DNA from: a virus
Virus record (IMG/VR): IMGVR_UViG_3300023109_000032
Span: 1 to 55,101 of that record
Length of the DNA: 55,101 bases
Reading direction: 5' to 3' (one strand)
Both the position numbers and the translations under genes were made by a program. The notes beneath the pieces are model-generated. The model had not been told where the DNA came from, searched no databases, and saw nothing but the letters and a program-made list of their open reading frames with translations. Positions 2,815-55,101 of this stretch are shown here, piece by piece. Position 1 is the stretch's first letter. The number at the start of each line of letters is the position of its first letter.

Positions 2815-3873
2815 ATGGAACATATTAAAGACTATAAATTATTTAAAGAGTCTCTAGACACTGAACTACTTACCGAGAAATACAGTTCAGATATATTAAG
2901 ACAGTTTGCTGCACAAGACGGCGGTTCAAGATGGAGAGGCGGAATTGCAAAAGATATGCAAAAATTTGCTAATCTTGCTTTAGATAAAATTTCAGATGCT
3001 GATTTTACTACAACTACACCAGAAGCTTATTGGAAAGGTGGAGATGCTAAGAATCCAAATAAAGTAGGATTCTTTGTTGATGCAGATCCAGGATTTATTA
3101 AATGGGCAAAGGCAAACAAGAAATACATGCCAAGCGGATTATCATTAGGTAACATTTCTAAGTATGGAGTAGTACTTTCTGTTATTAGAGGAGGAATTGG
3201 AATGTATCATGGTTTTGCAATGGACAGAGGATCTTCATACAGCAGACATAGAAAAGGAACTGAAGAAAGATATGGAATTCTTGCAAAAGATTATGAAACT
3301 AATTCTTTATATAATGGATGGGAAGGCAGACCTGCAGCTAAAGTAACAAGAAAGAATCTTATCGATGCTGCAACTCGTGTTTATGTTTTAGACTTAGATA
3401 GTTTAAGAGACAAGTATGATGTAAGTGGATTAAAACAAGATCGTGCAAATTCTAAAGCTGGTGCAACTGCACTAAAAACTGCTAAAGACATCAAAAAAGA
3501 AAATCAAGCAAGGTATGATGCTATCTTAACTGATAGAGCTGCAATGACTGACATTGATAAGGCAGTTAAAGATTCGATTGAATTATTAAATCAACATATA
3601 TCCGATGCATTAAAAGATGGTAATATGGATCAATACGGAAACTTTATTATCGGTAAAAGTCCTAGAGGTAGAGATGTAAAAATTGAAGATGGTGCAAATG
3701 CTATCAGAAATATGTTAAATGATTACCAAAGATATAAGGATTACGAAAGACAAAATAAAGAAGCGGCAGCTGATGGTAGAGAAGATAACTATTATGCAAG
3801 AGAAGTAAAAAACTATGCTAAAAGACTTCAAGACTATTCTAAAAATGTAAAGGATAAAAATTACGGTTGGTAA
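2815..3873 (+). CDS. Predicted head-packaged (internal) protein with T4-like leader
   Basis: Begins MEHIKDYKLFKESL and reaches LLTE at residue 22, followed by KYSSD. This mimics the leader of T4 internal proteins (MKTYQEFIAEA), which the prohead protease removes after L/I-x-E. The remaining 330 residues are highly charged and largely helical, with a Gly/Ser/Arg-rich middle (YGVVLSVIRGGIGMYHGF near 123-140) and a C-terminal Lys/Asp/Tyr-rich coiled region. No enzyme motif is recognised. It heads a run of five genes with the same kind of leader. That it is packaged and ejected with DNA is inferred from this leader. Confidence 0.7.
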   Translation: MEHIKDYKLFKESLDTELLTEKYSSDILRQFAAQDGGSRWRGGIAKDMQKFANLALDKISDADFTTTTPEAYWKGGDAKNPNKVGFFVDADPGFIKWAKANKKYMPSGLSLGNISKYGVVLSVIRGGIGMYHGFAMDRGSSYSRHRKGTEERYGILAKDYETNSLYNGWEGRPAAKVTRKNLIDAATRVYVLDLDSLRDKYDVSGLKQDRANSKAGATALKTAKDIKKENQARYDAILTDRAAMTDIDKAVKDSIELLNQHISDALKDGNMDQYGNFIIGKSPRGRDVKIEDGANAIRNMLNDYQRYKDYERQNKEAAADGREDNYYAREVKNYAKRLQDYSKNVKDKNYGW

Positions 3874-3874
3874 T

Positions 3875-4738
3875 ATGAAACATATAAATGAATACTCTGA
3901 ATTTAAAAAATCATTAATCACCGAAAAATTAGCACGAGGGTTAAAGCCACTATTAAAGATAGGTTCAACTATTAATAAAAAGGCTGGTGAAGATGCATTA
4001 CTGGATTTATCTGATAAGTTTGATAGTATAGATGATGAATATGCTGGAACTATAGCAAGTCATTTAGACATGGCTATTGAACTAATGCAAGATGGTTATG
4101 CAGGAGATGCTACTAAAAAATTAAAGCAATTTAATAAAGCATGCAAAGATGTTCTTAATGGAAAAGAAGTTGGTTCAGCTTTTGAAAACGTTAATGAAGC
4201 AACATATAATTCAAAAAATCATATCGGATCTACTTCTGACGGACAAGGTTCTAATGCTGAGATTTATAAAAAAGGAAAAGGATACTATGTAGTTGTCAGT
4301 GGAGAAGCTGATTATGATTTTGATGCAAAGAATGACAAAGAGTTATTGAAAAAGTTAAAAGATAACGAATTTGATTCTACTGATATATTAGAAGTTAATG
4401 AAGCTACTGATATGAATGATCCAGTCTTAATGGCATTTAGAGCAACTCGAAGAGAATTACCTAAATTTAAACCAGCTAAAGCAAAATCACGTAGGTTAAG
4501 CTTTGATAAGTATATGGATTTATTAGATGATCAAAGGTATATAGAACAAGAACTTAGAGATTTAACTGAAGAAATGGCTCAAACACTTAGAGACATGGAA
4601 CAGGAGGCTGAACCGGAAGGTGGCAAGATTGCTGATAAGTATGGTTCTATTATGATGAAGCAAGAAAAAGAATATGCTAAGTTAAAAGCTAAGAAAGAAA
4701 AGATTGATGCTAGGCTTGACAAACATAGAATGGATTAA
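3875..4738 (+). CDS. Predicted head-packaged polyprotein with internal VNEA sites
   Basis: Leader MKHINEYSEFKKSLITE followed by KLARG: I-T-E at 15-17 fits the T4 prohead-protease rule. Two further sites, VNVNEA-type at 106-109 and EVNEA at 174-177, divide the rest into segments of about 91, 68 and 111 residues. The middle segment looks like a small alpha/beta domain (GYYVVVSGEADYDFDAKND), the last is helical and Glu/Lys-rich. It starts one base after the previous stop and its TAA overlaps the next ATG. Interpretation as a precursor cut into several ejected proteins is inference from repeated sites shared with neighbours. Confidence 0.7.
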   Translation: MKHINEYSEFKKSLITEKLARGLKPLLKIGSTINKKAGEDALLDLSDKFDSIDDEYAGTIASHLDMAIELMQDGYAGDATKKLKQFNKACKDVLNGKEVGSAFENVNEATYNSKNHIGSTSDGQGSNAEIYKKGKGYYVVVSGEADYDFDAKNDKELLKKLKDNEFDSTDILEVNEATDMNDPVLMAFRATRRELPKFKPAKAKSRRLSFDKYMDLLDDQRYIEQELRDLTEEMAQTLRDMEQEAEPEGGKIADKYGSIMMKQEKEYAKLKAKKEKIDARLDKHRMD

Positions 4739-5541
4739 TGGAATTTATTAAAAAATATACAGAATTTTTATTAGAAAAGAAAAAGGAGAAAGAATCCTTT
4801 GAAGATAAAATTGAAGGTGATGGATATTATAAAGGTATATCTACAGCAACTGCTCGAGATAAGGTAGATCAAATGGCAAAACAATCTAAGATGTCTGATG
4901 ATGATCCAGATGCTTATAAAGAAATGCCTGGTGATACTAAAGGTAAAAAACTTTTAAAGAAATCTAAACATACAAAGGCATTTGATGATTTATATGCAGA
5001 TGAAGCTTTAGAAGAAATGGTTACTAATGAAGGTGTAATGAGCGAATTACATATAATGATGGAAGAAGCTAAAAACTTTGCTGATTTTAAGAAAAGATTT
5101 TATAAAGAATTTAGCGATAAAGTTAAACCTAACAAAGATTTAGATAGTTGGTTAAAAGATCTTTACTCTGAAGGCCTAGGAGAATCATTAGATGAAAAAG
5201 CTGGCGGAGATCGTGGTCCTATAAAAGGAAAGGGAATTGAAACTGGCCTTAAAAAGAAAGCAGATCAAACTGGAGTATCATTACCTTTATTAAGATTAGT
5301 AATGAGAAGAGGTATGGCTGCATGGAAAAGTGGACATAGACCTGGTGCTGGTCAAGAACAATGGGGTTATGCTAGAGTTAATTCATTTTTAACTAAAGCT
5401 CCAGGTACTTGGGGTAGACCGTTAGATGATCCTAAAAAGAATGGACCTAAAGGAAAATTTGGAGCTGATGCTGATATTGCTAAAGAAGTAATTAAAAAAG
5501 GCGAAGATAAGAAATTAAAAACAACAGGTTTACCTAAGTAA
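4738..5541 (+). CDS. Predicted head-packaged protein with conserved phage GHRPG domain
   Basis: Leader MEFIKKYTEFLLE then a very lysine-rich stretch; L-L-E at 11-13 fits the prohead-protease rule. Possible later sites are VTNEG (95-99) and SLDEK (150-154). The C-terminal domain (about 180-225) contains GMAAWKSGHRPGAGQ then WGYARVNSFL, a motif combination I know from uncharacterised phage virion-associated proteins (DUF5824-like). No catalytic function is assigned. Both ends overlap neighbouring genes by one base (TAATG), so the block is translated as a unit. Confidence 0.7.
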   Translation: MEFIKKYTEFLLEKKKEKESFEDKIEGDGYYKGISTATARDKVDQMAKQSKMSDDDPDAYKEMPGDTKGKKLLKKSKHTKAFDDLYADEALEEMVTNEGVMSELHIMMEEAKNFADFKKRFYKEFSDKVKPNKDLDSWLKDLYSEGLGESLDEKAGGDRGPIKGKGIETGLKKKADQTGVSLPLLRLVMRRGMAAWKSGHRPGAGQEQWGYARVNSFLTKAPGTWGRPLDDPKKNGPKGKFGADADIAKEVIKKGEDKKLKTTGLPK

Positions 5542-6086
5542 TGAAATTTATAAAAGGCTTTACTGATTTTAAAAATGTATCTGAAGAACTTAAGTATCAT
5601 GTAGATAATGGTATAGGTTTAGATGATAGTGTTTTTCGTTTAGGATCTGATGCTCATAGTAAATTATTTGAAGAGGCTAAACAATATTGGGATAAAGGAA
5701 ATCTAGTATTAAAAGGTAAAAGCGGATTTATGGCTAAGAACCTTGAAGTAGGTAAGCAAGCAATTTATAAAGATCGTAAATCTGGAAGAACAAAAGATGT
5801 TAAATTAGATTCACCAGAAAGAGGCGGTAATAGAAAGTTTATTGTTTATCGTAATAGCGGAAGAACTGATAAAGAAACAGGAAAGATTGTTGCAAAAAAG
5901 ATTGAATGGGGAGATCCTAAATTGTCTGTAAAGAATGATGATCCAGGTGCAGCTGCTAGTTTTTGGGCAAGACACCAATGTGATCAAAAGAAAAAGATGG
6001 ATCCAAATAAAGCTGGCTTTTGGGCCTGTTATGGCCCAAGTCTATTTGGTAAGCAATTAGGATTAAAGAGTACTAATCCTTGGTAA
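5541..6086 (+). CDS. Predicted head-packaged protein, 181 aa
   Basis: Leader MKFIKGFTDFKNVSEE belongs to the same MKxIxxFxxF family as its neighbours, although the cleavage site (VSE) is weaker. The C-terminal half has a Lys/Gly-rich beta-like domain with conserved-looking FWARHQC and GFWACYGPSLF segments, including two cysteines. Fold unknown. It is coupled to the preceding gene by a TAATG overlap and followed by a 24-base AT-rich gap containing TAAATAAATAATAAA, a possible late promoter. Confidence 0.65.
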   Translation: MKFIKGFTDFKNVSEELKYHVDNGIGLDDSVFRLGSDAHSKLFEEAKQYWDKGNLVLKGKSGFMAKNLEVGKQAIYKDRKSGRTKDVKLDSPERGGNRKFIVYRNSGRTDKETGKIVAKKIEWGDPKLSVKNDDPGAAASFWARHQCDQKKKMDPNKAGFWACYGPSLFGKQLGLKSTNPW

Positions 6087-16545: not shown

Positions 16546-16658
16546 TTAAAAGAAAGAATGAATCATCTCAGTTTATTTTTTGTTACTGGGATGATTATTC
16601 TACTTTACCACAAGAAAGAATTAAGAATATTAAAACGAAAACAAAAATAAGAAAATGA
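16530..16658 (+). CDS. Small basic protein, 42 aa
   Basis: MAKEVIKRKNESSQFIFCYW then DDYSTLPQERIKN and a Lys/Thr/Arg tail. It overlaps the preceding gene by 16 bases and its TGA overlaps the next ATG (ATGA); the matching overlaps at both ends support translation. Function unknown. Confidence 0.5.
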   Translation: MAKEVIKRKNESSQFIFCYWDDYSTLPQERIKNIKTKTKIRK

Positions 16659-17539
16659 AATATATTAAAATTTTAGATTTAAACGAAAGTTTAGATGAAA
16701 AAGTAAACGAAGCAGTAAATGCATCAGGCTATATTAAAGCTGGTAAATTAGGTTACAATGATCAATTTTTAGGAAGAAGATCTTTATCATGGACATTATC
16801 AACTGATTTAGGTTTAAAGGCAGCTGATGAATTCGTTGGTCCGTGGTTAGGATTTGATCATGTATCAATGTATGCTATTGGTAAAAAAGGAGGTACTATT
16901 TTAGATGATGCATTAACCAACAAATACACTTATGAAGAACTCAAATCTGCTGCTGCAAAGTATTTAGGGATTAAAGAATCAGCTGATTTAAATGAAGCTA
17001 AATTTGTAAGTTCATATGATACAAAAGTAAATGATGCCGAAACAGAAAAAGACGTTTTAAAAATATACCCAAAGGCTAAATTCTTTACAGGTAAATTAAC
17101 TCACTTCTTTGGAGAACTTGAACCAAATCTTTTCTTTAAAGCTTATTATCCTAAATATTATAAGGAAGATACTGGTAAAACTGTTAAAGGTGATTTTAAA
17201 ATTACTTCAGTCTATTCTGAAAAAGGTAGAAAATATGTTGAGTTAATGAAAGAATCATTAAATGAAGCAAAGAAATTTAAACCAGGTGATAAATGGTCAA
17301 ATGATTTTGATTATGATGGAATGATGAAGTATGCTTTAACGGTGAATCATAAAACTCCACTAAAAACTCTTCAGAAATTACATGATTCTGCAACTGATGT
17401 AAATTACCATACTCCTTTTTCAGGTTTAGGTAATGCAATTGATTGGATAACTGATGATGGTGTTAATTCACAAGAAGGTAAAGACTTTATGAAACAATTT
17501 CATAATGATATTAAATCTGAAATAAAGAAAATGGCATAA
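16655..17539 (+). CDS. Predicted head-packaged polyprotein, three modules
   Basis: Leader MKYIKILDLNESLDEKVNEA contains LNE, LDE and VNEA sites. Further sites LNEA at 112-115 (ESADLNEAKF) and 202-205 (KESLNEAKKF) split the rest into three segments of about 95, 90 and 89 residues, each of which looks like a separate small domain with its own aromatic core. The repeated ES-x-LNEAK context implies one recognition rule. TAATG overlap with the next gene. Inferred to be packaged in the head and cut by the prohead protease into several ejected proteins. Confidence 0.75.
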   Translation: MKYIKILDLNESLDEKVNEAVNASGYIKAGKLGYNDQFLGRRSLSWTLSTDLGLKAADEFVGPWLGFDHVSMYAIGKKGGTILDDALTNKYTYEELKSAAAKYLGIKESADLNEAKFVSSYDTKVNDAETEKDVLKIYPKAKFFTGKLTHFFGELEPNLFFKAYYPKYYKEDTGKTVKGDFKITSVYSEKGRKYVELMKESLNEAKKFKPGDKWSNDFDYDGMMKYALTVNHKTPLKTLQKLHDSATDVNYHTPFSGLGNAIDWITDDGVNSQEGKDFMKQFHNDIKSEIKKMA

Positions 17540-19017
17540 TGAAATATATTAAATTATTTGAAAAGTTCACTAAGGACTATATGAAAAAAATAGACCTTAG
17601 TGATTTTAAGAAAATCAAAAAAGGTTCTAAGATTTTATACATGGGTGGCCAAGTGGAAGTTTTAGATAATAATGGATATGTTCTTAAACTTAAAGGAGAA
17701 GACGGTAGAACCTTTACTATTAATAAATCTCAATTTGATCACGGAGGAATGATTAAAGAAGTATCTGATGGAAAGAAAAAGAAAAAGAAAAAGGAATTCC
17801 ATCCAGATATGATGTATGAGGCTAAAGGCAAAAAGGTTATAAATGATCTTTATAAAATGGATGCTCAAATTGATTATCTTTCTGATGCTGATGATGCAAC
17901 TAAAAAGATATGGAAAAAGGCAGGAGTTAATCCTAATGATGATAATCAAATTATTCTTTACTCATATGTTAATTCATGGCCTGAAACTAAAAAACTTTTA
18001 GACAAATCAAGAATTAAGTATAAAGAATTAGAAGATCCTAATTCTGCAGGTGAATCTTTTATTGTATTTGATGTTAATGAATCAATTAATGAATTAAGAA
18101 CATCACCAGTATCTGGAACAATGGCTGGTTTTACTACATCGTTAGAAGATAGAAAATATGAATTAAAGAAAGATGTTAAAGGCGCTACTATTGGAAACTT
18201 TTCAAATGTAACACTTCCTAAAGGAACTATTATTTATAATTTACCTGGTGGGGTATTTGCAGATCATTTTGCATTAAAACAAAGGTATACGAGTAGATCA
18301 TCACAAGGTCCACAATATTTTGATAAACCAACCTTTAAAGGTATAATGATTAAACAAACACCTGCTGTCTTATCATACATTGAAAAGAACAGTAAAGTTT
18401 TAGAATCATTTGATACAGAAGACGAAGTAATCAATTTTATAGATGGAATAGTTAACGAAGCTAGTGATCAACAAAGATTAACTCATTTAAGAAAATTTGG
18501 AATTGCACCTAATAACCAACCACAGAATGGTGCTTATATAAAACAAGTAGCAAAACCTGGAAAATTCTTCGTGGATTGGAAAGATGCTTTTGATCTAGGT
18601 GATGTTGCATTAGAGTTTGTAAAATCTGTAGGTAGTATTTCTGAGTTTGATATTATTGATCTTAAGACAATGAAACGCACAGGTAAGCAATTAGATGTTA
18701 AGAAAGGTCAATTAGGAAATTTAAGAACTACTTATGGTGTTAGAGTTAATGAATCTCTTAATGAATTATCATCTGCACAAGATGGTACTAAAGATTCTGA
18801 TGGTAAACATAGACATGAACATCATTTAGAAGAAGATATAGAAGCAATGTGGAAAAAAGCCTATGGTGAGAATTTTAGTTCTCAATATCCAGCAGTTGCT
18901 AAAATTATTAAACAAAGAAAGATTAAAGATAAAAGAGAAATTGCTAGAATATGGCAAGATACTTATGGTGAGGATTTTGAAAAAGAATACCCAGCATTAT
19001 TCCAAAAGTTAAGTTAA
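17539..19017 (+). CDS. Predicted head-packaged polyprotein, five modules
   Basis: 492 residues. Leader MKYIKLFEKF, then an SH3/KOW-like beta domain (about 25-70), a lysine run (79-85) and candidate sites MMYEA (91-95), NESINEL (180-186), IVNEA (304-308) and NESLNEL (404-410). The sites delimit modules of about 90, 122 and 101 residues plus an 80-residue end module. The last contains a two-fold helical repeat: MWKKAYGENF...YPAVAKII and IWQDTYGEDF...YPALFQKL. No enzyme motif recognised. One-base overlaps at both ends. Confidence 0.75.
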   Translation: MKYIKLFEKFTKDYMKKIDLSDFKKIKKGSKILYMGGQVEVLDNNGYVLKLKGEDGRTFTINKSQFDHGGMIKEVSDGKKKKKKKEFHPDMMYEAKGKKVINDLYKMDAQIDYLSDADDATKKIWKKAGVNPNDDNQIILYSYVNSWPETKKLLDKSRIKYKELEDPNSAGESFIVFDVNESINELRTSPVSGTMAGFTTSLEDRKYELKKDVKGATIGNFSNVTLPKGTIIYNLPGGVFADHFALKQRYTSRSSQGPQYFDKPTFKGIMIKQTPAVLSYIEKNSKVLESFDTEDEVINFIDGIVNEASDQQRLTHLRKFGIAPNNQPQNGAYIKQVAKPGKFFVDWKDAFDLGDVALEFVKSVGSISEFDIIDLKTMKRTGKQLDVKKGQLGNLRTTYGVRVNESLNELSSAQDGTKDSDGKHRHEHHLEEDIEAMWKKAYGENFSSQYPAVAKIIKQRKIKDKREIARIWQDTYGEDFEKEYPALFQKLS

Positions 19018-20222: not shown

Positions 20223-20843
20223 ATGAAAAAGCTCACCTGGTTGTTAGTGTCTTTGTTTTTGCCTTTTGTTGTTTCTTCTCAGTTATGCGATGTTGAATTA
20301 TTAGATATGGATTGGGATGACCAAATTATAACATTAACTTTAAATGATAATGTTTGTTCTAATTCATCTACTCCTAGTTGGGTACCTTACCCTGATTCTG
20401 TGTATGTAGTACAATTAGGATTAAGTTATGGTGGTACGACTTGTACGATAGCTGCTAATTCTACTAATTTTTATCCACCTCTTGGATTAAATGATACTCT
20501 TACTTATACTTTTAGTGATTGGTCAGATCCTTTTGATTGTTTTGCAAATGCATTTACTTATTATCAAGAAACTTGTATAGTTACAGTTTCAGTAGTAGGA
20601 CCTAATAATTCTATTAACTTAGATATGAATAATGGAAATAATTATATAGGCTTTAATCCTGTATGGGATAACTGTTATGGTGTAGCTAATGTTACTGAAT
20701 TAATAAATGCTAATAAGCAGGTAATAGGTGTGTTTGATTTTCTAGGCCGATATATTCAAAAAGATATAATTGGCTTGATTTCTGGGAAATTATATTTAAT
20801 CAAATATAATGATGGCACCATAAAAAAATTACTAGTTACCTAA
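20223..20843 (+). CDS. Secreted protein with short T9SS-like C-terminal domain
   Basis: Sec signal peptide MKKLTWLLVSLFLPFVVSS with Gln at the predicted +1, then LCDVELL. The body is beta-rich with several Cys (possible disulfides) and YGGTT. The last 45 residues (VIGVFDFLGRYIQ ... GKLYLIKYNDGTIKKLLVT) match the end of T9SS type-A sorting domains, in which G-x-Y-x-[IV]-K and a Lys-rich end are conserved. A relative with the same architecture lies at 44644. Predicted to cross the inner membrane by Sec and the outer membrane by host T9SS. First gene of the island. Confidence 0.75.
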   Translation: MKKLTWLLVSLFLPFVVSSQLCDVELLDMDWDDQIITLTLNDNVCSNSSTPSWVPYPDSVYVVQLGLSYGGTTCTIAANSTNFYPPLGLNDTLTYTFSDWSDPFDCFANAFTYYQETCIVTVSVVGPNNSINLDMNNGNNYIGFNPVWDNCYGVANVTELINANKQVIGVFDFLGRYIQKDIIGLISGKLYLIKYNDGTIKKLLVT

Positions 20844-20891
20844 AGCCCTTTGTATTATGTATCTTAGAGTCACCTTTAAGATATATAATAT

Positions 20892-22088
20892 ATGCGATAC
20901 TTCAAATTATTCATCTTATGTTTTATCCTGGCGATGCCTATCGTCCATGCACAAACTACTACAGTAAACTTGAGGTCACTTAAAACTCACTATGGTGGAA
21001 GCCAATCAGGTCAGATGTATTCACAAAATGCTGACAGTCACATAGAATTTGATGCAATGGTTAATCTTGCTGATGCCGGTACTACACTTTATTTAGATAC
21101 AACGGTAGATATAACAAGTTACCAAGGACCAAGAGGTGGTAATCATACTCCTTATCAACTATGGAATCCACCAAGATGGGGTGGAGCTGGTACTCAAAGA
21201 TATGCAATTATCTATACAGGTTGGTTTAAACCTAATAAAACAGGTACATACGGGTTCAGAACATTCACCGATGACTCACATGAGTTTATGATTAAAGGTA
21301 TTGGTAAAACTAATGATATAGTTACTAAACATTATGGGTGGAATACATGGGCTTATGGTACGGCAACACTAAACAAAAATACATGGTATGAGTTTGAATA
21401 TAGAATACAGAATTTTGGTGGTATAGGTGCTGCAAATTTTCAATATAAAATACCAAGTAGTAATACATACAATCAACTTAGTCCTAATCATCCATTTGCA
21501 GAATGGACTTCTACAGATCCTAACGCGGTACCTATCACGGCGAGTGGTTATATTAAAGGAGCAGAAGAACAAGGTATTGCAGGACAAACTGTTTATCTAA
21601 AGACACAAAATAAAAACCAAGTAGGTTTCTCATATACAACACAAGCAACTACAACAACAGATTCAAATGGATATTATTCATTTAATACTATTTTAAATTA
21701 CAACGATTACGATTTTACAATAGACATCACTCCGACAATAGGAACACTTACAACTTCAGATATTAACTGGTTCCAAGATAGATTACTATCAGATACAGTT
21801 AGTTCTAAAGATTACTGGAGACTTGATGTAAATAATACAGGTTCATTTTCTGCCTCTGACATTTATCTAATGCATCAGAAGAGACAAGGTAACATTTCTA
21901 GTTACCCTGGTGGAGGCCAGGAAATATGGACTACAAATTACTGGCAGCAACCTCATGTATGGGATGCCGTTTCAGTAGACATAGATGATAAATCATTGCT
22001 CTCTGGTTACGGAGCATGGTCCCTCTTTGATTTAGCTAATGGAAATCAAACAACTTTCTATGTAATAAGAGCGGGCCATAAAAACTAA
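20892..22088 (+). CDS. Secreted PA14-like plus dockerin-like protein
   Basis: Signal peptide MRYFKLFILCFILAMPIVHA followed by Gln. Residues about 85-215 resemble a PA14 (sugar/adhesion) domain: IIYTGWFKPNKTGTYGFRTF and DDSHEFMIKG. Next comes a carboxypeptidase-regulatory-like beta domain (GYIKGAEEQGIAGQTVYLK ... DSNGYYSF), then a dockerin-like pair of half-repeats: TTSDINWFQDRLL and DVNNTGSFSASDIYLMHQK, the second matching the DxNxDGxxxxxD calcium-loop layout. The end ENG...TTFYVIRAG resembles the next protein's end. Probably an exported adhesin or part of a cell-surface complex. Confidence 0.75.
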   Translation: MRYFKLFILCFILAMPIVHAQTTTVNLRSLKTHYGGSQSGQMYSQNADSHIEFDAMVNLADAGTTLYLDTTVDITSYQGPRGGNHTPYQLWNPPRWGGAGTQRYAIIYTGWFKPNKTGTYGFRTFTDDSHEFMIKGIGKTNDIVTKHYGWNTWAYGTATLNKNTWYEFEYRIQNFGGIGAANFQYKIPSSNTYNQLSPNHPFAEWTSTDPNAVPITASGYIKGAEEQGIAGQTVYLKTQNKNQVGFSYTTQATTTTDSNGYYSFNTILNYNDYDFTIDITPTIGTLTTSDINWFQDRLLSDTVSSKDYWRLDVNNTGSFSASDIYLMHQKRQGNISSYPGGGQEIWTTNYWQQPHVWDAVSVDIDDKSLLSGYGAWSLFDLANGNQTTFYVIRAGHKN

Positions 22089-22105
22089 AAAATAATTAAA
22101 AACAA

Positions 22106-23200
22106 ATGAAACTAAAAAACATTTTTCTAACACTGGCTTTAGCTATCAGTACAACGACGGTCTTCGGCCAGACTACTGCACCTGATGCAACAAAACCTTA
22201 TGTTATTTTTGATTCAACGTACACTTTAGAATCCACTGGTTCTAGTTCAAACACTGAGTTTGATATTTACTATGATAACACATCTGGTAATGCAGTTAAA
22301 GGTATTCAGTTTTCGTTTAATTATGATAACACGGTATTTGATGAACCAACATTAACATATAACAATACATCCGGCCCTGTTGGATATTTGTCGTATGATG
22401 TTGATTCAACAAACGGAGTAGTAAAAGTAGTATGGGTTTATACTGGAGCATCTACCACTTTCGATGTGGTTACTGGTAATATGTTTACAGTAAATGCACC
22501 TTTTCTATCAAATTACACAAACGGAGCAGTTGCTGATGTAGATTTTACTGCTGATCTTACTGCTTATTATGTAAAAGCTGATGGAACAGATGGAGCTCTA
22601 GGCACACAAGATAATGGTGGTAACTTTATAGAACCGGCATTTGATTATGTAGCAACTATCTTAAATAGTGGAACAAATCCAGCTGAATCTATTCCTGTGA
22701 TTTTACAAAAATCATCTGATGGAAATACTTGGGTAGATGTAACTACAGTAACAACGGCTGCTAATGGAACTGCAACATTTTCAGAAAGCTTAGATCAATC
22801 TTACTGGCAAATTAGACTTAAGATTGCAAGTGGATTAGATGCAACTACGGCACTATCAACTGCAGATGCTAATATGATCGCACAAATTGCTGCAGGAGTA
22901 CAATCAGCTTCTGGTATTCAGTTCTATACTGCAAATCCAAATCAAGCTACTGGAATTACAGCATCGGATTCTTATTTAGTATTCTCTAGATTAGCACAAG
23001 GTAACTTAAGTTACGCTTCTAATCCAGATGTATTGTTCTTTACTGAAGCACAATATAATACTATTAATGGTTCTAGTTCAGATCAATCAAGTTCAATTCC
23101 AGGACTATCAGTATTTTTATCTCCACAAATTAATGGAACTACTACCGGTAACTTCTACCTATTAATCTTAGGTGATGCCAACGGTACAGGTTTAAACTAA
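22106..23200 (+). CDS. Secreted cohesin-like plus dockerin-like protein
   Basis: Signal peptide MKLKNIFLTLALAISTTTVFG then Gln, as in its neighbours. Residues about 35-150 resemble a cohesin-type beta sandwich (TEFDIYYDNTSGNAVKGIQF, FNYDNTVFDEPTL, VVKVVWVYTG). A middle beta domain follows, then a dockerin-like duplication: TALSTADANMIAQIAAGV and GITASDSYLVFSRLAQGN. The second half-repeat and the closing FYLLILG parallel the upstream protein (SASDIYLMHQKRQGN, FYVIRAG), so the two share a C-terminal module. It lacks a recognisable T9SS domain. Confidence 0.72.
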   Translation: MKLKNIFLTLALAISTTTVFGQTTAPDATKPYVIFDSTYTLESTGSSSNTEFDIYYDNTSGNAVKGIQFSFNYDNTVFDEPTLTYNNTSGPVGYLSYDVDSTNGVVKVVWVYTGASTTFDVVTGNMFTVNAPFLSNYTNGAVADVDFTADLTAYYVKADGTDGALGTQDNGGNFIEPAFDYVATILNSGTNPAESIPVILQKSSDGNTWVDVTTVTTAANGTATFSESLDQSYWQIRLKIASGLDATTALSTADANMIAQIAAGVQSASGIQFYTANPNQATGITASDSYLVFSRLAQGNLSYASNPDVLFFTEAQYNTINGSSSDQSSSIPGLSVFLSPQINGTTTGNFYLLILGDANGTGLN

Positions 23201-23201
23201 T

Positions 23202-23939
23202 ATGAGGAGTATACTATTAACATTACTGTTATTACTAACAGCAAGCGCTCAGTCTCAGGTCGTATTTAACGTACCTGAGATTGATGTGCCTGTAAGTGAG
23301 TACATTAACTTGCCTGTAGAAATTGAAACTTCAGGCGAAGATGTTGGTAGTCTAGAATTTGCATTGAACTATAATACTGATTTTTTAGAATTTGTATCAA
23401 TAAGTGTTACAGCTAAAGCACAAGAATGGTTAACCTATACTATGGACTGGGAAGGGGAAACTGTTAGGTGGGGTGGTTATGACGCATCTTTTGGTACCTA
23501 TACGATAAGTAACACTACTGAACTATTCACTTTAAGATTTAGAGTCATTAGTCAAGATTGGGATACTATACCTATTACGATTGGTAGAAAAACAGCAGGT
23601 ACAGAATTAGGCTGGGATATTGAAGTTGAAAATACTGATGGGTATGTTAATAAAAGAATGGCATCATTTGACACCAGACCAATGGATGGAATTTATGGGT
23701 TGGTTTATCCAATCCCAACACGAGGTTTGTTAACTTTTGATCTAACTGTACCAGATAATGGTGATTATGAAATCAGAGTAATAAATTATAATGGAGTAGT
23801 ATACAAAAGACTTAAGAAAAGATTCTTTAGTGGATATGTTTCATTCCAAACAGATTTATCTGATTTAGCACAAGGAATTTATTTGTTGCAAGTAACAAAC
23901 GGTGTGTATGTAAAAACATTCAAAATAATAAAGAAATAA
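23202..23939 (+). CDS. Secreted cohesin-like protein with full T9SS type-A sorting domain
   Basis: Signal peptide MRSILLTLLLLLTASAQS with Gln next. Residues 20-150 form a cohesin-like domain (INLPVEIETSGEDVGSLEFA, LNYNTDFLEFVSI, FTLRFRVI). Residues about 168-245 are a textbook T9SS type-A CTD: VYPIPTRGLLTFDL (standing in for YPNPxxGxLxI), YEIRVINYNGVVYK, DLSDLAQGIYLLQV and the terminal VKTFKIIKK. Predicted to be exported by the host T9SS and possibly anchored at the surface. It starts two bases after the previous gene's stop. Confidence 0.82.
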   Translation: MRSILLTLLLLLTASAQSQVVFNVPEIDVPVSEYINLPVEIETSGEDVGSLEFALNYNTDFLEFVSISVTAKAQEWLTYTMDWEGETVRWGGYDASFGTYTISNTTELFTLRFRVISQDWDTIPITIGRKTAGTELGWDIEVENTDGYVNKRMASFDTRPMDGIYGLVYPIPTRGLLTFDLTVPDNGDYEIRVINYNGVVYKRLKKRFFSGYVSFQTDLSDLAQGIYLLQVTNGVYVKTFKIIKK

Positions 23940-23940
23940 G

Positions 23941-24201
23941 ATGGAAGATAAAAAGGGAGGGTTCTTTTCAGAAATTAAGAATCAAATAGTAACTGGGATA
24001 GGTTTAGTTATAACAGCGGCTTTTGGATTATTGATAGCCAATATGCAATCTATATTTGAGCCTAAAGAAGAAAAAGTAGATCCACCTGTCATGGAGCAAA
24101 GAATCAATACACCAAATAATATAAAAGATACTTTGGTAATAACAAAAACAATAGTTATACCTCCTAAGAAAGAAGAAAAAGAAGAAGAGATATCATGGTA
24201 A
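23941..24201 (+). CDS. Single-TM protein with charged Pro/Lys/Glu tail
   Basis: A polar N terminus (MEDKKGGFFSEIKNQ), one membrane segment (VTGIGLVITAAFGLLIANM) and a disordered periplasmic-looking tail ending PPKKEEKEEEISW. The topology is TonB- or spanin-like, without either family's motifs. It overlaps the CsgG-like gene by seven bases, so it may serve the export system. Confidence 0.6.
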   Translation: MEDKKGGFFSEIKNQIVTGIGLVITAAFGLLIANMQSIFEPKEEKVDPPVMEQRINTPNNIKDTLVITKTIVIPPKKEEKEEEISW

Positions 24202-24899
24202 GAATATTTTTAATTGCATTACTTTTATTTAATCTTACGGCTAATGCTCAAATAGGAAAAACTGAAACTGAAGACTATAAGGCTGGCTTTGAACAAAAAT
24301 CAGACATAGATGAGGTATCAGATTATATGTTAGATTATCAATTACCTATTCAAGTTTTAAATATTGGCTTTACTCCAGAATTATATGAGTTCTATCCAGA
24401 GTTAAGAGAGAATCGAGTAGGTCTTGGTGTAAGTAACATTACTTTGTCTTATTTGGAATGGACAGATAGATTTTTATTTACTGAAGATAAAGAAGAAATC
24501 AAACAAAGAATGGTAAAACAACATAAAGCAGCTGCGAAAGGTATATCCGCAAATGATATTAAAGTTGTAGGTAATGTTGTATTGGCAGAGTATTTTGTTT
24601 ATATAGAAATATATGATTATTCTGTATCAGAGGAAGAAGAAGTTACAGTCAGTGGTGTAAAGACAGTTCTTAAAACTATTATCGGTATGCAAGTAAGATT
24701 TGTTAATGCTGAAACAGGAACAATCTTTACAGGAAGTGGGAGCGGTGAAGCAGTTACAATTAAAAGAAGTCAGATTGGTGAAGATAATGAAGTTAAGTTT
24801 AATAAATCAACAATCGGTATTGCAACTAAGAAAGCTTTGGAAACTGCATCAGCTCGTATCATAAAAAGAATGATTAAGCGTGGAATATTTAAAGAATAA
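24195..24899 (+). CDS. CsgG-like curli/outer-membrane secretion protein
   Basis: Signal peptide MVRIFLIALLLFNLTANA plus Gln; no lipobox Cys, unlike E. coli CsgG. The body matches the CsgG/LpoB fold: YFVYIEIYDY, then GMQVRFVNAETGTIFTGSG, and a C-terminal helix ATKKALETASARIIKRM. CsgG forms an outer-membrane channel that secretes curli subunits; csgG-like genes have been noted in marine T4-like phages, but their role there is unknown. The gene sits between the TM gene and the barrel gene with overlaps on both sides. Confidence 0.72.
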   Translation: MVRIFLIALLLFNLTANAQIGKTETEDYKAGFEQKSDIDEVSDYMLDYQLPIQVLNIGFTPELYEFYPELRENRVGLGVSNITLSYLEWTDRFLFTEDKEEIKQRMVKQHKAAAKGISANDIKVVGNVVLAEYFVYIEIYDYSVSEEEEVTVSGVKTVLKTIIGMQVRFVNAETGTIFTGSGSGEAVTIKRSQIGEDNEVKFNKSTIGIATKKALETASARIIKRMIKRGIFKE

Positions 24900-26163
24900 A
24901 ATTTTAATTCTATTACTGTGTTTACCATTTGCTACTTTTGGCCAATGGTCTTATACATTTACAGATCCTTGTACTTTAAATCAACAAACAATCCAAATGG
25001 GTTCCAGTAATTCTATTGCTTTAAATTATTTTGGTAATGTTCAAACATTTACACAGACAGATTTTACAAATGGTACATTTGACTCATGGATGGATTTAGT
25101 AACACAAGCTAATAGTTCATCACCATGTTCAGGTGTAACACAAGTAATTATGAATACCTCAAATACTATTGCTATTCAGAATACTATCTTAGTCGTTACA
25201 AATGTTATGTCAATATTAGGTGGGGAGATGTTACCTAAAGCAATATCTGCATCAGCAGTTCCAGTTGCAGAAGCTATAGATAATGCAGCAGGTGAAGAAG
25301 AGGAAGAAAAAAAGAAAGGTTCATCTAAAAATCAAAATAGTAATAGCACCAGTTCTGAAAATCAAAACAGTACATCAAGTAATGAAAACCAAAGTAGCAG
25401 TGGAGAAGGCAATGGAGGTGGGGAAACTAATGGTGGAGAAGTGACTGAGGAAGAGGAAACTGAAGGCGGTGCAAATTTGTCATTAGCTAATTCTATTTCT
25501 AATGCATTGGACGGTGGAGATGAAGATAATAAAAATAGAGGATCATTAATTGCATCAGGTGATATTATAGTTATTGATAATAGGGATAATTCAAATGGGC
25601 AACAGTTAAAGGTAGTAGGTTCTATTACACGAGCCAATACAAAACAGAGCAGAATTCAAGGTGCTCTTTTTACATACACATCTGTTACTAATGATTTTAG
25701 TTTAACATTTTACAAATCTTGGATTAACCCTAACAAAACTTTTAATTTAGTAGGGGCCAATACAACGATGACTGATTTTAATCAAAATCATTTTAATACC
25801 ACAACAGCTTTAGAATCATGGAAGTGGGGTAAAATTACAGGTATGGCTGGAGCTAACTTTACATTTGGTAAGTTAGGAAAAAGAAATTTACAAAACTTAT
25901 CAGCTGTTACTGGTGCACATAGAAATTTTAGAATAAGTCCAAGGATTACTACTTCAACATTAATACTAGGTGTTTATTCTCCGTTCACTCAATTCTATGA
26001 AGGTAAGTGGTGGGATTCTGGAATTTTGGTAGTTCCATTTAGTTCATGGGATATTAAGATAACAAAAACTTTTAAATATAATATCAGTTTTACAGGCGTT
26101 TGGCATTCTAACGGTAATGCTTTAAATTATCAAATTTTAACCGGTGGTAAAATAAGATTTTAA
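24880..26163 (+). CDS. Exported protein, probable outer-membrane beta-barrel
   Basis: The only plausible start is GTG at 24880, inside the csgG-like gene; it gives a signal peptide (KILILLLCLPFATFG) followed by Gln. Residues about 145-205 are a low-complexity Asn/Ser/Glu/Gly linker. The C-terminal 200 residues alternate polar and aromatic residues in strands (DFSLTFYKSWINPNKTF, WGKITGMAGANFTFGK, YNISFTGVWHSNGNALNYQ) and end in aromatic Phe (KIRF), typical of outer-membrane barrels. It may be the membrane partner of the exporter. Confidence 0.65.
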   Translation: MEYLKNKILILLLCLPFATFGQWSYTFTDPCTLNQQTIQMGSSNSIALNYFGNVQTFTQTDFTNGTFDSWMDLVTQANSSSPCSGVTQVIMNTSNTIAIQNTILVVTNVMSILGGEMLPKAISASAVPVAEAIDNAAGEEEEEKKKGSSKNQNSNSTSSENQNSTSSNENQSSSGEGNGGGETNGGEVTEEEETEGGANLSLANSISNALDGGDEDNKNRGSLIASGDIIVIDNRDNSNGQQLKVVGSITRANTKQSRIQGALFTYTSVTNDFSLTFYKSWINPNKTFNLVGANTTMTDFNQNHFNTTTALESWKWGKITGMAGANFTFGKLGKRNLQNLSAVTGAHRNFRISPRITTSTLILGVYSPFTQFYEGKWWDSGILVVPFSSWDIKITKTFKYNISFTGVWHSNGNALNYQILTGGKIRF

Positions 26164-26164
26164 T

Positions 26165-26602
26165 ATGAAGAATTTAATTATAACATTAATGTTTTTACCT
26201 ATGCTTTCTTTTTCACAGGAATGTTATACTGTGGCTAAAGTAGGTACACACGTAGAGATGGAAGAAATGAGTAAGAACCGTATTGTTTTCGGAATTAAGC
26301 AAATGGTTGAAGATATTATTTCAGACAAGTATGAATTATGCATGGATGGCAAACCTGTAATAATAGTAGTGAAATCAATCGAAGCTCCAACAACTGGAAT
26401 TGAATTAGGCCCATGGACTAAAGTAAGTAAAAAAACTATTGTGAAGTTACTAATCTATATGGATGGTAAAGAAATTGCAGTAGAAGGAAAAGCTAAATCA
26501 ACAGTTGAGGCAACATTCATAGATCTTAATAATGATAAATTAGACTTTAATAAAACTACATTTTCATCAGCAGTTAAGAAAGCAATCGAAAAAGCTCTTT
26601 AA
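26165..26602 (+). CDS. Small exported protein linked to the CsgG-like gene
   Basis: Signal peptide MKNLIITLMFLPMLSFS plus Gln, then ECYTVAKVG. The body is alpha/beta, ending in STVEATFIDLNN and FSSAVKKAIEKAL, a layout recalling the last strand and helix of CsgG/LpoB-fold proteins, so it may be a distant relative or partner of the gene at 24195. Two cysteines. Last gene of the island. Confidence 0.6.
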   Translation: MKNLIITLMFLPMLSFSQECYTVAKVGTHVEMEEMSKNRIVFGIKQMVEDIISDKYELCMDGKPVIIVVKSIEAPTTGIELGPWTKVSKKTIVKLLIYMDGKEIAVEGKAKSTVEATFIDLNNDKLDFNKTTFSSAVKKAIEKAL

Positions 26603-44643: not shown

Positions 44644-45177
44644 ATGAAGATGAAGAAGATTTTAATGATGGTAATAGTTTCGCTTGGACTACAATTACAA
44701 GCACAAACGTTATGTGATTCAAATATGACTTACACAACAGGTTCACAGTATCAATTAGAAATAGCAATTCCACAAACTGGAAATAGTTTACCAACAATGG
44801 CTCCACTATATGCTGTCACTTATGGTGGTCAAACAATGTTGGGTCAAGACAGTTGTTTTGCTGGTCCTTGTACACATACAGTATACAATTACAATCCAAC
44901 TACTGGAATGCCTTATGATACAATTACAACTTGTATTAGTTATACCTTAACAGATACATTAGGTTATGTTGATACGATGAGTTGTTGTTTCAATCAAGTA
45001 TGGGATGGGCAGGCTTGGATGAGAATGTCTATGGGTGGTACTGTTGGTATAGAAGAGTTGTACAATACTGAAAAACAAGACTATAGAATATTTAATGTAT
45101 TAGGTAGACAATTAATAGAAGCTCCAATTGGAGAAATGTATATTCAAAATAGAAAGAAATATATTAAGCTGAGATAG
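44644..45177 (+). CDS. Secreted protein with short T9SS-like C-terminal domain
   Basis: Signal peptide MKMKKILMMVIVSLGLQLQA followed by Gln; then LCD as in the protein at 20223. Six Cys in the body suggest disulfides. The end (YRIFNVLGRQLIEAP ... MYIQNRKKYIKLR) parallels the 20223 protein (VFDFLGRYIQ...) and T9SS type-A domains. It stands outside the main island, just before a bidirectional terminator. Confidence 0.72.
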   Translation: MKMKKILMMVIVSLGLQLQAQTLCDSNMTYTTGSQYQLEIAIPQTGNSLPTMAPLYAVTYGGQTMLGQDSCFAGPCTHTVYNYNPTTGMPYDTITTCISYTLTDTLGYVDTMSCCFNQVWDGQAWMRMSMGGTVGIEELYNTEKQDYRIFNVLGRQLIEAPIGEMYIQNRKKYIKLR

Positions 45178-52654: not shown

Positions 52655-55101
52655 ATGGCAACGTCATTTAACCTACAAGAATATATTCTTTTTAGAACAG
52701 AAATAAAAAGAGAGCTTACCAATAATGAAGTAGACACTAATTTTAAAATGGTGGCTAATCCTTGGGAAGATACTAGAATATATGAAATAGGAAACATTGT
52801 ATATCATCCGGTAATAGTAGATGATCCCTCAACAACAGGATTAGATCAAGTCTTAGCTTGGTGGAGAGCAAACGTTAGAACTACACAAGGTGTGTTTGAT
52901 ACATTTCAATGGGATATGATTGGAGGTATTGGTTCTGGTAATATTAATATACAAGGCGCGAATAGTTTTGGTAAAATTAAAGTTAACTCTACCGCACCAA
53001 CTGGAGCTTTACAAGCTGGTTTTGATGCATTAGTAGAATCGTCAACTCCTAATGATACTTTTAATTTTATTGCAGGCCAAGGAATACAATTACAATATAA
53101 CCTATCTTCTAAATCAATAAAAGTTGTAAATACATTAGCATCCAATCCAGGTGAAGTAAATATTGGAGAAAATATAGGTCTGGGTGCTACACATCAAGAT
53201 ATCTATTCAGGCAAAGTTGGTGTTAATCTACAATTTTATGGTTTAGATTCAACCAATACTGGAGCGGGAACTGCATTAACTATAAGTACTGATTCCACAT
53301 TACAGAATGTTGTTTACAATTTTGATGAAGGTGAAGTTGACTTAGCTCAATTAAATAGTGGAGCACCAACAATTGGTATGTTATCAAATGTAGCGACCGG
53401 TGCAGATACTCCTGCTGCTAACGGGTATATTTTACAATGGAGTGCTAGTGCTGGTGAATATCAACCAATACCAATAGGTTCATTAGGACAAGTAAATATT
53501 TATGGTAGTGATGGGTCAATAGGTTCTGCTACTAGAATTGTTTCATTAAGTGGGTCTGCAGGCCAATTACAATTTAATAGACTTACTAATACAAAAACAG
53601 GTTTACATATTGATAATACAGCAACAACACATCAATTACAACTTAGAGTTGAAAGTGCTACTGGGAATGCTGCAACTCAATATGCATTAAATTCTGTAGT
53701 AGTAGCAACTGCTGGTATTTATGGTACTGATGGTTCCTTTGGTATTAATTTTGGTGCTACTGGTTTACAGGGGTTGAGCGTTGATGGTTTAAGTATATCT
53801 TCAAATAATGAATTATATGTTCCTCAACTGGCGTCTGATACAATAACAACAGTAGAATCATTTAGGATTCCTTTAGTTGATATAGGTGTTGCAAGTACAG
53901 GTAAGTTTGATTCTGGTGATCAATATGAAGTATCATCGTATTCAACTGATGCACCTAATACTTATTTAAGAGTTTCACAGAAAGGTGAATACTATTTAAG
54001 GTCTGGTAACCAAAGCGGCCAAACAGATTCTAAATCATTTTTAATCGATGTTGAGCATGATTATTCAAATGGATTAATTGATGGGTTTGGTTTATACATG
54101 AATTATAAGACACCTACAAATATTGAAGGTGTTAATATTTTACAGTGGATGGACAAGGCAGACAGTCGTTATATAGGAAACCAAATACAAACAGATATAA
54201 CAAGTGACGATGCTACTAAATACATTGGTTCTAATATATCGCTATCTTATAAGACAGGTTTATCAATTACTGTTGGGGAAATGATATCATTCACAGAGGC
54301 ATCAGCAGGTGGGTCTCCACAAACAATAGGTTTATATTCTAATGTTGTAGATACATTTGCTCAAAATGAACAAGACGGTGAAGCAATTCTAACCAGCTTA
54401 ATTGCTGACAGTGGAACATGGGCTGGTTATTTTGTAGGTTGTGTTAATATAGATCAAGGTGGATTAGTTCTTCCTTCTACAAGTTTTGCAAATAGGCCAT
54501 TATGTAATGATGTAAGTGGTGGAAATATTGATGATAGGATATTATGGATTAATTCTGCAAATGGCCACTTATACAGAGGGACTGTTGATATTGAAGCAGG
54601 AACTGGCGGTAGCTCAACATTAAGCGGTTTAACTGATGTTTCAATTACAAATATACAGGATGATCAATTGCTTGTATATAATAGTTCTACTAATGTATGG
54701 GAGAATGCATCTTTAGCTGCTTATAATTTAAATGCAGTTGGATTATCAAATGGGGCTGTAAGTATCCAATTAAGTGATGGGGCTGCAAGTAGCGATGTTG
54801 ATTTAGTACCTGGTTCAAATATCTCGTTTGTTGTAAATGAAATAACTGATGAAATAACAATCAATGCTGTTGGTGGTGGTGCACAAGGACCACAAGGACC
54901 ACAAGGCCCACAAGGGTCTGGTGAAACTGGAGCAACTGGAATCCAAGGTCCACAAGGTCCACAAGGTCCACAAGGTTCTGGTGAAACTGGTGCAACTGGT
55001 ATTCAAGGCCCACAAGGTCCACAAGGTATTCAAGGTCCACAAGGGTCTGGTGAAACTGGTGCAACTGGTATTCAAGGCCCGCAAGGACCGCAAGGTATTC
55101 A
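52655..55101 (+). CDS. Collagen-like tail fibre or adhesin (3' end outside window)
   Basis: An open frame of 815 codons without a stop. The N terminus ([20 protein letters not shown]) could attach to the virion. Residues about 40-740 are beta-rich and repetitive (Gly/Ser/Thr/Asn/Asp), as in fibres. From residue about 742 (base 54881) a collagen-like Gly-X-Y tract begins: [28 protein letters not shown] and so on, which continues to the window edge. The frame is in phase throughout. Such tracts form triple-helix stalks in phage tail fibres. No signal peptide. Confidence 0.85.
54881..55101 (+). repeat. Collagen-like tandem repeat (GPQ / [11 protein letters not shown] units)
   Basis: DNA repeats of the 9-base unit CCACAAGGT and a longer unit of about 57-66 bases coding [11 protein letters not shown] followed by GPQ triplets, seen three times before the window ends. 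Synonymous changes (GGA/GGT, CCA/CCG) show it is not freshly duplicated everywhere. Likely to vary in length by slippage. Confidence 0.85.

Follow-up and report, generated by a model that had tools for sequence, protein, structure and literature searches.

The locus and its genes

The 55,101-bp virus record analysed here (IMG/VR record IMGVR_UViG_3300023109_000032, the whole of which is referred to below as the window) contains, at positions 20892-26602, a run of seven ORFs on one strand, in which successive genes either overlap or are separated by gaps of no more than 48 bp. ORFs are named below by their start positions, and the features of the region, together with a secreted protein encoded upstream of it, are as follows.

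20223-20843, + strand: secreted protein upstream of 20892; a doubtful member of the module, with a tail that resembles a type IX secretion system (T9SS) stump by eye only
20892-22088, + strand: adhesin slot, 398 aa, with a signal-peptide-like start, a PA14/GLEYA-like front, an X-type module and a dockerin-like end
21192-21443, + strand: PA14/GLEYA-like stretch of the adhesin, aa 101-184, below Pfam cut-offs
21543-21758, + strand: X-type (Ig/prealbumin-like) module of the adhesin, aa 218-289, sub-threshold in Pfam
21825-21860, + strand: dockerin-type EF-hand loop of the adhesin, aa 312-323, by pattern match
22106-23200, + strand: adaptor, 364 aa, signal-peptide-like start, cohesin, X module and dockerin-like part in that order (AlphaFold model, Foldseek, VIA)
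22190-22636, + strand: cohesin fold of the adaptor, aa 29-177 (VIA, 3ul4_A)
22637-23005, + strand: X module and dockerin-like helices of the adaptor, about aa 178-300 (model; VIA, 4fl4_I)
23202-23939, + strand: anchor, 245 aa, cohesin plus T9SS type-A sorting domain (profile matches)
23265-23585, + strand: cohesin domain of the anchor (PF00963, above cut-off)
23703-23936, + strand: T9SS type-A C-terminal sorting domain of the anchor (PF18962 and TIGR04183, above cut-offs)
23941-24201, + strand: small membrane protein with one hydrophobic segment, overlapping the next gene; clearly related genes are confined to the closer loci
24195-24899, + strand: CsgG-fold protein, signal-peptide-like start, no lipobox cysteine (structure model, Foldseek, VIA)
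24880-26163, + strand: partner protein with a signal-like start, a Cys-containing N-terminal part, a low-complexity linker and a conserved C-terminal part
26165-26602, + strand: small exported partner protein, 145 aa, signal-like start

An N-terminal hydrophobic segment was found in all eight ORFs from 20223 to 26165, as against 6 of the 77 other listed ORFs, using a heuristic rather than SignalP; in 23941 it is a membrane segment and not a signal peptide.

The anchor and its sorting domain

It had originally been predicted that the product of ORF 23202 carries a T9SS type-A C-terminal domain, that two smaller secreted proteins (20223 and 44644) end in shorter versions of it, and that the phage thereby places cargo on the cell surface using an export system of its host. 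The profile search proposed at the same time bears out the first of these points, since both T9SS type-A profiles match: PF18962 (Por_Secre_tail) scores 35.0 bits (curated cut-off 27) over aa 168-242, and TIGR04183 scores 39.2 bits (cut-off 23) over aa 168-245, the sorting domain thus lying at the very C terminus of the protein (aa 245 of 245). The start of the protein is signal-peptide-like as judged from a hydrophobicity heuristic, with the site before a Gln, and a search of the whole record showed this to be the only T9SS tail present. The tail is not a product of chance, because it is kept in relatives (exactly one in each of 50 records; see below). Taking the profiles, the conservation and the signal-like start together, the 23202 product is best read as phage cargo for the host T9SS. 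As regards a translocon encoded by the phage itself, SprA_N matched none of 28 records (that of the window and those of 27 relatives), in a search that was run without a responding control.

The same cannot be said of the two smaller proteins. Neither 20223-20843 nor 44644-45177 matched any T9SS family as a whole protein at E values up to 1, nor any NCBIfam T9SS model at E values up to 10, whether whole proteins or C-terminal fragments were used; the stump-like ends are apparent by eye only, and T9SS tails in these proteins were rejected for want of a profile match, so that the idea of T9SS cargo is supported for 23202 and unsupported for the other two. Both products are signal-peptide-like and both have viral relatives. 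The product of 44644-45177 belongs to a family of small secreted proteins found at 26 viral loci, which corresponds to no known family and has a conserved Gly-Arg in its C-terminal block.

What had gone unremarked in the original prediction is the domain at the start of the 23202 product, where aa 22-127 match the Pfam cohesin family with 37.3 bits against a cut-off of 24.1. The main point of the present analysis, as these assignments indicate, is that the cargo is a putative cohesin anchor within a conserved multi-gene surface-display module.

The adaptor

The Pfam cohesin score of the adaptor 22106 is weak and sub-threshold, and its assignment comes from structure prediction. An AlphaFold model built from 51 sequences has a mean pLDDT of 87.7, and the best solved structures found for it with Foldseek (E 1.7e-7) are 4fl4 and 3kcp, which according to their descriptions are pieces, interacting scaffoldin or multimodular, of the cellulosome of Clostridium thermocellum and which we take to be the cohesin-X-dockerin trimodule of CipA. 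In VIA comparisons, residues 29-177 of the model superpose on the cohesin 3ul4_A with Z 14.9 and rmsd 2.7 over 139 residues, and residues 26-296 on 4fl4_I with Z 14.0 over 228 residues; the rmsd of 8.8 in the latter case is as expected if the angles between the domains differ. No T9SS tail was found in the adaptor by profile search.

The adhesin slot

The C-terminal parts of 20892 and of the adaptor are homologous. The front end of 20892 gave GLEYA at E 0.011 and PA14 at E 0.016, both under the cut-off, and no lectin match in Pfam beyond these sub-threshold stretches; in the adhesin of a relative (L046) PA14 does exceed its cut-off (29.0 bits against 24). The X-type module behind it scored 24.8 bits with SdrD_B (cut-off 29.7) and 22 bits with CarboxypepD_reg (cut-off 32.3). 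No T9SS tail was found in 20892, nor is one among the Pfam families of the 46 adhesin-slot proteins compared.

The dockerin-like character of the C-terminal end depends on a calcium loop of dockerin type, which is present in 40 of the 46 adhesin-slot proteins as against 4 of 4600 shuffles (the pattern having been written after viewing the sequences) and which, among the 85 ORFs of the window, occurs in 20892 only. Dockerin_1 itself was reached at E<=0.01 in two of the 46 proteins, L028 scoring 15.3 bits, under the cut-off of 22.9, and there is one clear calcium loop as compared with the two EF-hand repeats of dockerin type I.

Pfam families matched by the 46 proteins include Lectin_C (29 proteins), Laminin_G_3 (8), GEVED (5) and PA14 (2). 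Laminin_G_3 is named after a lectin/glucanase superfamily; aside from this one, none of the 10 Pfam families matched is an enzyme family. On these domain assignments the front end of the adhesin is swapped between phages, the alternatives being C-type lectin, laminin-G, PA14 and GEVED. The clearest case is that of the L020 and L028 adhesins, in which the last 115 aa are 97% identical and the fronts 36%; this is one of four such pairs among 394 pairs with a CsgG-like identity of at least 75%, so that within the sample such front-end swaps are infrequent among close relatives.

Retroelement-driven variation of the lectin was considered and rejected: a search for reverse transcriptase (PF00078), in which the controls responded, found it in none of 27 records, some of which may be fragments, and the swapping is therefore not a known form of retroelement-driven diversification. 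In one relative (L042, 4494-6770) there are two tandem adhesin-slot genes, both of which match the adhesin profile.

The CsgG-fold protein and its partners

For 24195, a model built from 55 sequences (pLDDT 73.6) gave CsgG chains as all of its first 18 Foldseek matches, the best at 5.6e-7. VIA comparison with CsgG chain 4uv2_P gave Z 12.1 and rmsd 3.2 over 152 residues, the first structure other than CsgG being 7rxu, at Z 9.9. Sequence methods gave no such result: there was no Pfam CsgG match at E<=10, hhalign comparison with E. coli CsgG, alone or together with two phage CsgG sequences, was not significant, and PDB profile searches returned no CsgG. Nor is there a lipobox, no Cys being present near the signal cleavage region. 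As modelled, 24195 is a CsgG-fold protein and not CsgG proper, the likeness having emerged in fold comparison only. A scan of genome contigs for a cellular source of the CsgG-like gene produced 58 candidate stretches, none of which was confirmed, in a pattern scan that may miss distant relatives.

An identity of 24880 and 26165 with CsgF or CsgE found no support in hhalign comparisons with the E. coli proteins, and no curlin repeat was found among the Pfam matches of the module ORFs. Pfam and PDB searches with 24880 gave nothing meaningful. One might guess that its C-terminal part forms an outer-membrane barrel; the number of amphipathic strands at the C-terminal end of the family lies within that of shuffles (seven members tested, z 0.0 to 1.4), and F is the last residue in 31 of 53 members.

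Conservation and linkage

As a control on linkage, the co-occurrence of the CsgG-like gene and the cohesin-T9SS anchor was examined in both directions. A CsgG-like profile found 181 viral relatives, of which 80 were kept and 50 of their records tested; every one of the 50 contains exactly one T9SS tail (49 over the cut-off) and a cohesin (again 49 over the cut-off). A survey of gene content covered 79 of the 80 loci (L013 being left out), and in the 50 with enough flanking sequence the adaptor, the anchor and genes like 24880 and 26165 were each present without exception. The adhesin was recorded in 49 of these 50; in the remaining one, L093, a 564-aa ORF matches the adhesin profile and was excluded by a length rule. 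Adaptor and anchor are fused into a single ORF in 25 of the 50 loci, from which it follows that they can be made as one chain. In the reverse direction a search from the anchor found 170 viral relatives, of which 80 were kept, and CsgG-like and 24880-like genes were both present in all 69 loci that have at least 2.5 kb downstream. The same gene order is seen around the anchor in 13 of its close relatives from viruses, some of them truncated by contig ends. These counts do not represent independent events, because many contigs are common to both searches and some are near-identical.

This co-occurrence marks the module as a fixed feature of T4-like phages. In one contig, L079 (IMGVR_UViG_3300021963_000811, from 7946), a TGA breaks the cohesin-T9SS gene, which may be due to decay of this copy or to a mistake in assembly.

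Viruses carrying the module

A search of 50,697 phage records for isolates that carry the module led to the immuto phages, which infect Flavobacterium sp. LMO8 (four records), and to no others. Flavobacterium phage immuto is T4-like, having Gp20, Gp23 and a prohead protease, and a T4-type Gp23 major capsid protein was found in 17 of 27 related records tested. The module lies at 10.5-16.4 kb in immuto, beside replication and nucleotide genes, and the annotated baseplate, tail, capsid and terminase genes are found from about 82 kb on. Fifteen of the 85 ORFs of the window match immuto (bases 1-150000), six of them being module genes. The genes gp13-gp19 of vB_FspM_immuto are a direct syntenic relative of the module in the window, with a C-type lectin (57.3 bits) where the window has the PA14/GLEYA-like domain; the record annotates the cohesin and omits the T9SS tail, the CsgG fold and the dockerin-like ends.

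Other features of the window

A short N-terminal motif (Met, then Ile-x-x-aromatic-x-x-Phe with acidic residues) is common to ORFs in 2815-6086 and 17539-19017 and to those at 16655, 19049, 19397, 45657 and 46114, a loose pattern having caught five clear cases. It resembles the capsid-targeting peptides of T4 internal proteins, and these ORFs possibly encode many injected internal proteins. At about 53000-55101 there is collagen-like Gly-X-Y coding sequence, which apparently runs off the end of the window, the last bases reading as repeats of G-x-x. At 18-1372 a SIS-domain sugar isomerase adjoins an ORF that by eye resembles CMP-KDO synthetase, and remodelling of host surface sugars is a possible role for the pair; a KdsB scan gave a single match, at 36%, in a Bdellovibrionales MAG, and is uninformative as to host lineage.

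Relation to known systems

Phage T9SS cargo as such is not new. As far as the accessible text of the reports goes, Cryophage cargo comprises an endoglucanase, a GH39 and a PA14 protein (PMC7468147), and a BACON/T9SS protein has been described for crAss-like phages (PMC6949934). Like the present module, these phages have genes with T9SS type-A sorting domains, one of those of Cryophage being a PA14 gene; the difference is that in the excerpts seen these are single cargo genes (enzymes, PA14, BACON), whereas in the module there is one tail per record and it is on a cohesin anchor.

The cellulosomal CipA trimodule (4fl4, 3kcp) has the same domain order as the adaptor, as modelled, and is its best structural match. 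Cellulosomes carry dockerin-bearing enzymes, whereas none were seen in the module, the cargo of which has lectin-type domains instead; in addition the module is viral in origin and, unlike the cellulosome, its anchor would use the T9SS of a Gram-negative host.

The curli-pore clusters (CsgF, CsgG) of pelagimyophages and of Melnitz (PMC7029224, PMC9004378) likewise belong to T4-related phages and encode a CsgG-type protein within an envelope cluster near replication genes. The module differs from them in that its protein is too far removed for Pfam CsgG, in having no CsgF or CsgE match and no curlin repeat, and in being coupled to cohesin and T9SS. In HTVC008M (L097) and Melnitz (L098) the curli clusters are close to a single-stranded-DNA-binding gene, a position resembling that of the immuto module. 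The phage CsgFG clusters have been connected in print with 'sibling capture' (PMC7029224) and with lysis (PMC9004378), both as proposals.

No description of a cohesin-dockerin phage module was found among the literature matches listed, which are mostly open-access, nor was an account of such a module met with among the Immutovirus papers listed, PMC11500664 included.

A proposed surface-display complex

From the evidence described above, ORF 23202 probably encodes the part that anchors to the cell surface a lectin display complex made by the phage and built like a cellulosome. We know of no virus-encoded cohesin-dockerin display system described before. In the scheme proposed, the Sec-type signal starts recognised by the heuristic would take the module proteins to the periplasm, and the C-terminal domain of the anchor, as its profile matches suggest, would then direct it through the host T9SS to the outer face of the outer membrane, the normal site of attachment of T9SS cargo. 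Judging from the domains present, the anchor cohesin would hold the dockerin-like end of the adaptor, the cohesin of which would in turn hold the dockerin-like end of the adhesin. Having no T9SS tail, adaptor and adhesin would have to leave by some other route. The always-present CsgG-fold protein 24195, acting with 24880 and 26165, is a natural candidate for their export route, the alternative being that they ride out bound to the anchor. Once outside, the swappable lectin-type domain of the adhesin may bind glycans on the surface of the infected cell itself or on that of its neighbours.

As to what such a complex would be for, masking of receptors against further phages seems the most likely use, a choice to be taken as tentative. 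A close second, somewhat unlikely in its own right, is retention: the same complex would hold neighbouring host cells or particles so that progeny find hosts. GLEYA and PA14 domains are known from adhesins, and the window adhesin is GLEYA/PA14-like, if sub-threshold; the lectin, laminin-G, PA14 and GEVED front ends found in the slot would all suit such a use. Capture has already been proposed for the pelagimyophage curli genes in the available part of PMC7029224, but no clumping was reported for Melnitz, a methylophage with curli genes (PMC9004378), though that is another system. We consider it improbable that the complex serves nutrition or habitat by binding polysaccharide for the infected host. 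The classic role of cohesin-dockerin systems is in polysaccharide use, which would favour such a function, as would the endoglucanase and GH39 among the Cryophage cargo (PMC7468147, as far as its accessible text goes); the adhesin-slot proteins, however, matched no enzyme among their 10 Pfam families, Laminin_G_3 aside.

If 24195, 24880 and 26165 were the working core, forming an outer-membrane pore that times lysis or uptake, the cohesin proteins would serve only to gate or localise it; the modelled CsgG fold of 24195 is consistent with this, and a lysis or pinholin role has been proposed for phage CsgGF (PMC9004378, in the portion available). However, a lysis pore needs no interchangeable lectin, cohesin scaffold or T9SS tail, and in immuto a holin and a lysozyme are annotated elsewhere in the genome, so that this too we regard as unlikely. 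Phage receptor-binding proteins do use lectin-type domains, and one could imagine the module proteins to be virion components (fibres or decorations) made from Bacteroidota-type domains, but the signal-peptide-like starts and the T9SS tail, together with the position of the immuto module at 10.5-16.4 kb, far from structural genes (82 kb on), make this very unlikely. Least credible of all is host sequence caught by chance, or assembly contamination, with no viral role. Cohesin, dockerin and T9SS tails are indeed cellular domain types, but this reading is already contradicted by the presence of the module in a sequenced phage isolate (immuto); in addition there are 170 to 181 viral relatives, depending on the search, a T4 major capsid protein is present in 17 of the 27 records tested, and the genome-contig scan confirmed no relatives.

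Returning to the display complex, the reading in its fullest form is that a widespread group of T4-like Bacteroidota phages build a cellulosome-style assembly on the infected cell, in which a T9SS-exported cohesin scaffold carries an exchangeable dockerin-bearing lectin and a CsgG-type pore exports the tail-less parts, altering what the cell binds; we would put the chance of this being correct at a little under even. It would join two published and unexplained observations, phage T9SS cargo and phage CsgG pores, in one testable assembly, for which a cultured phage-host pair is at hand in immuto and Flavobacterium sp. LMO8. The module is also a source of cohesin, dockerin-like and T9SS parts that are distant from the clostridial ones in use. 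If the proposal is true, lytic phages would remodel the outside of the infected cell with a modular, swappable binding complex, and in doing so would exploit an export route that is limited to their host group.
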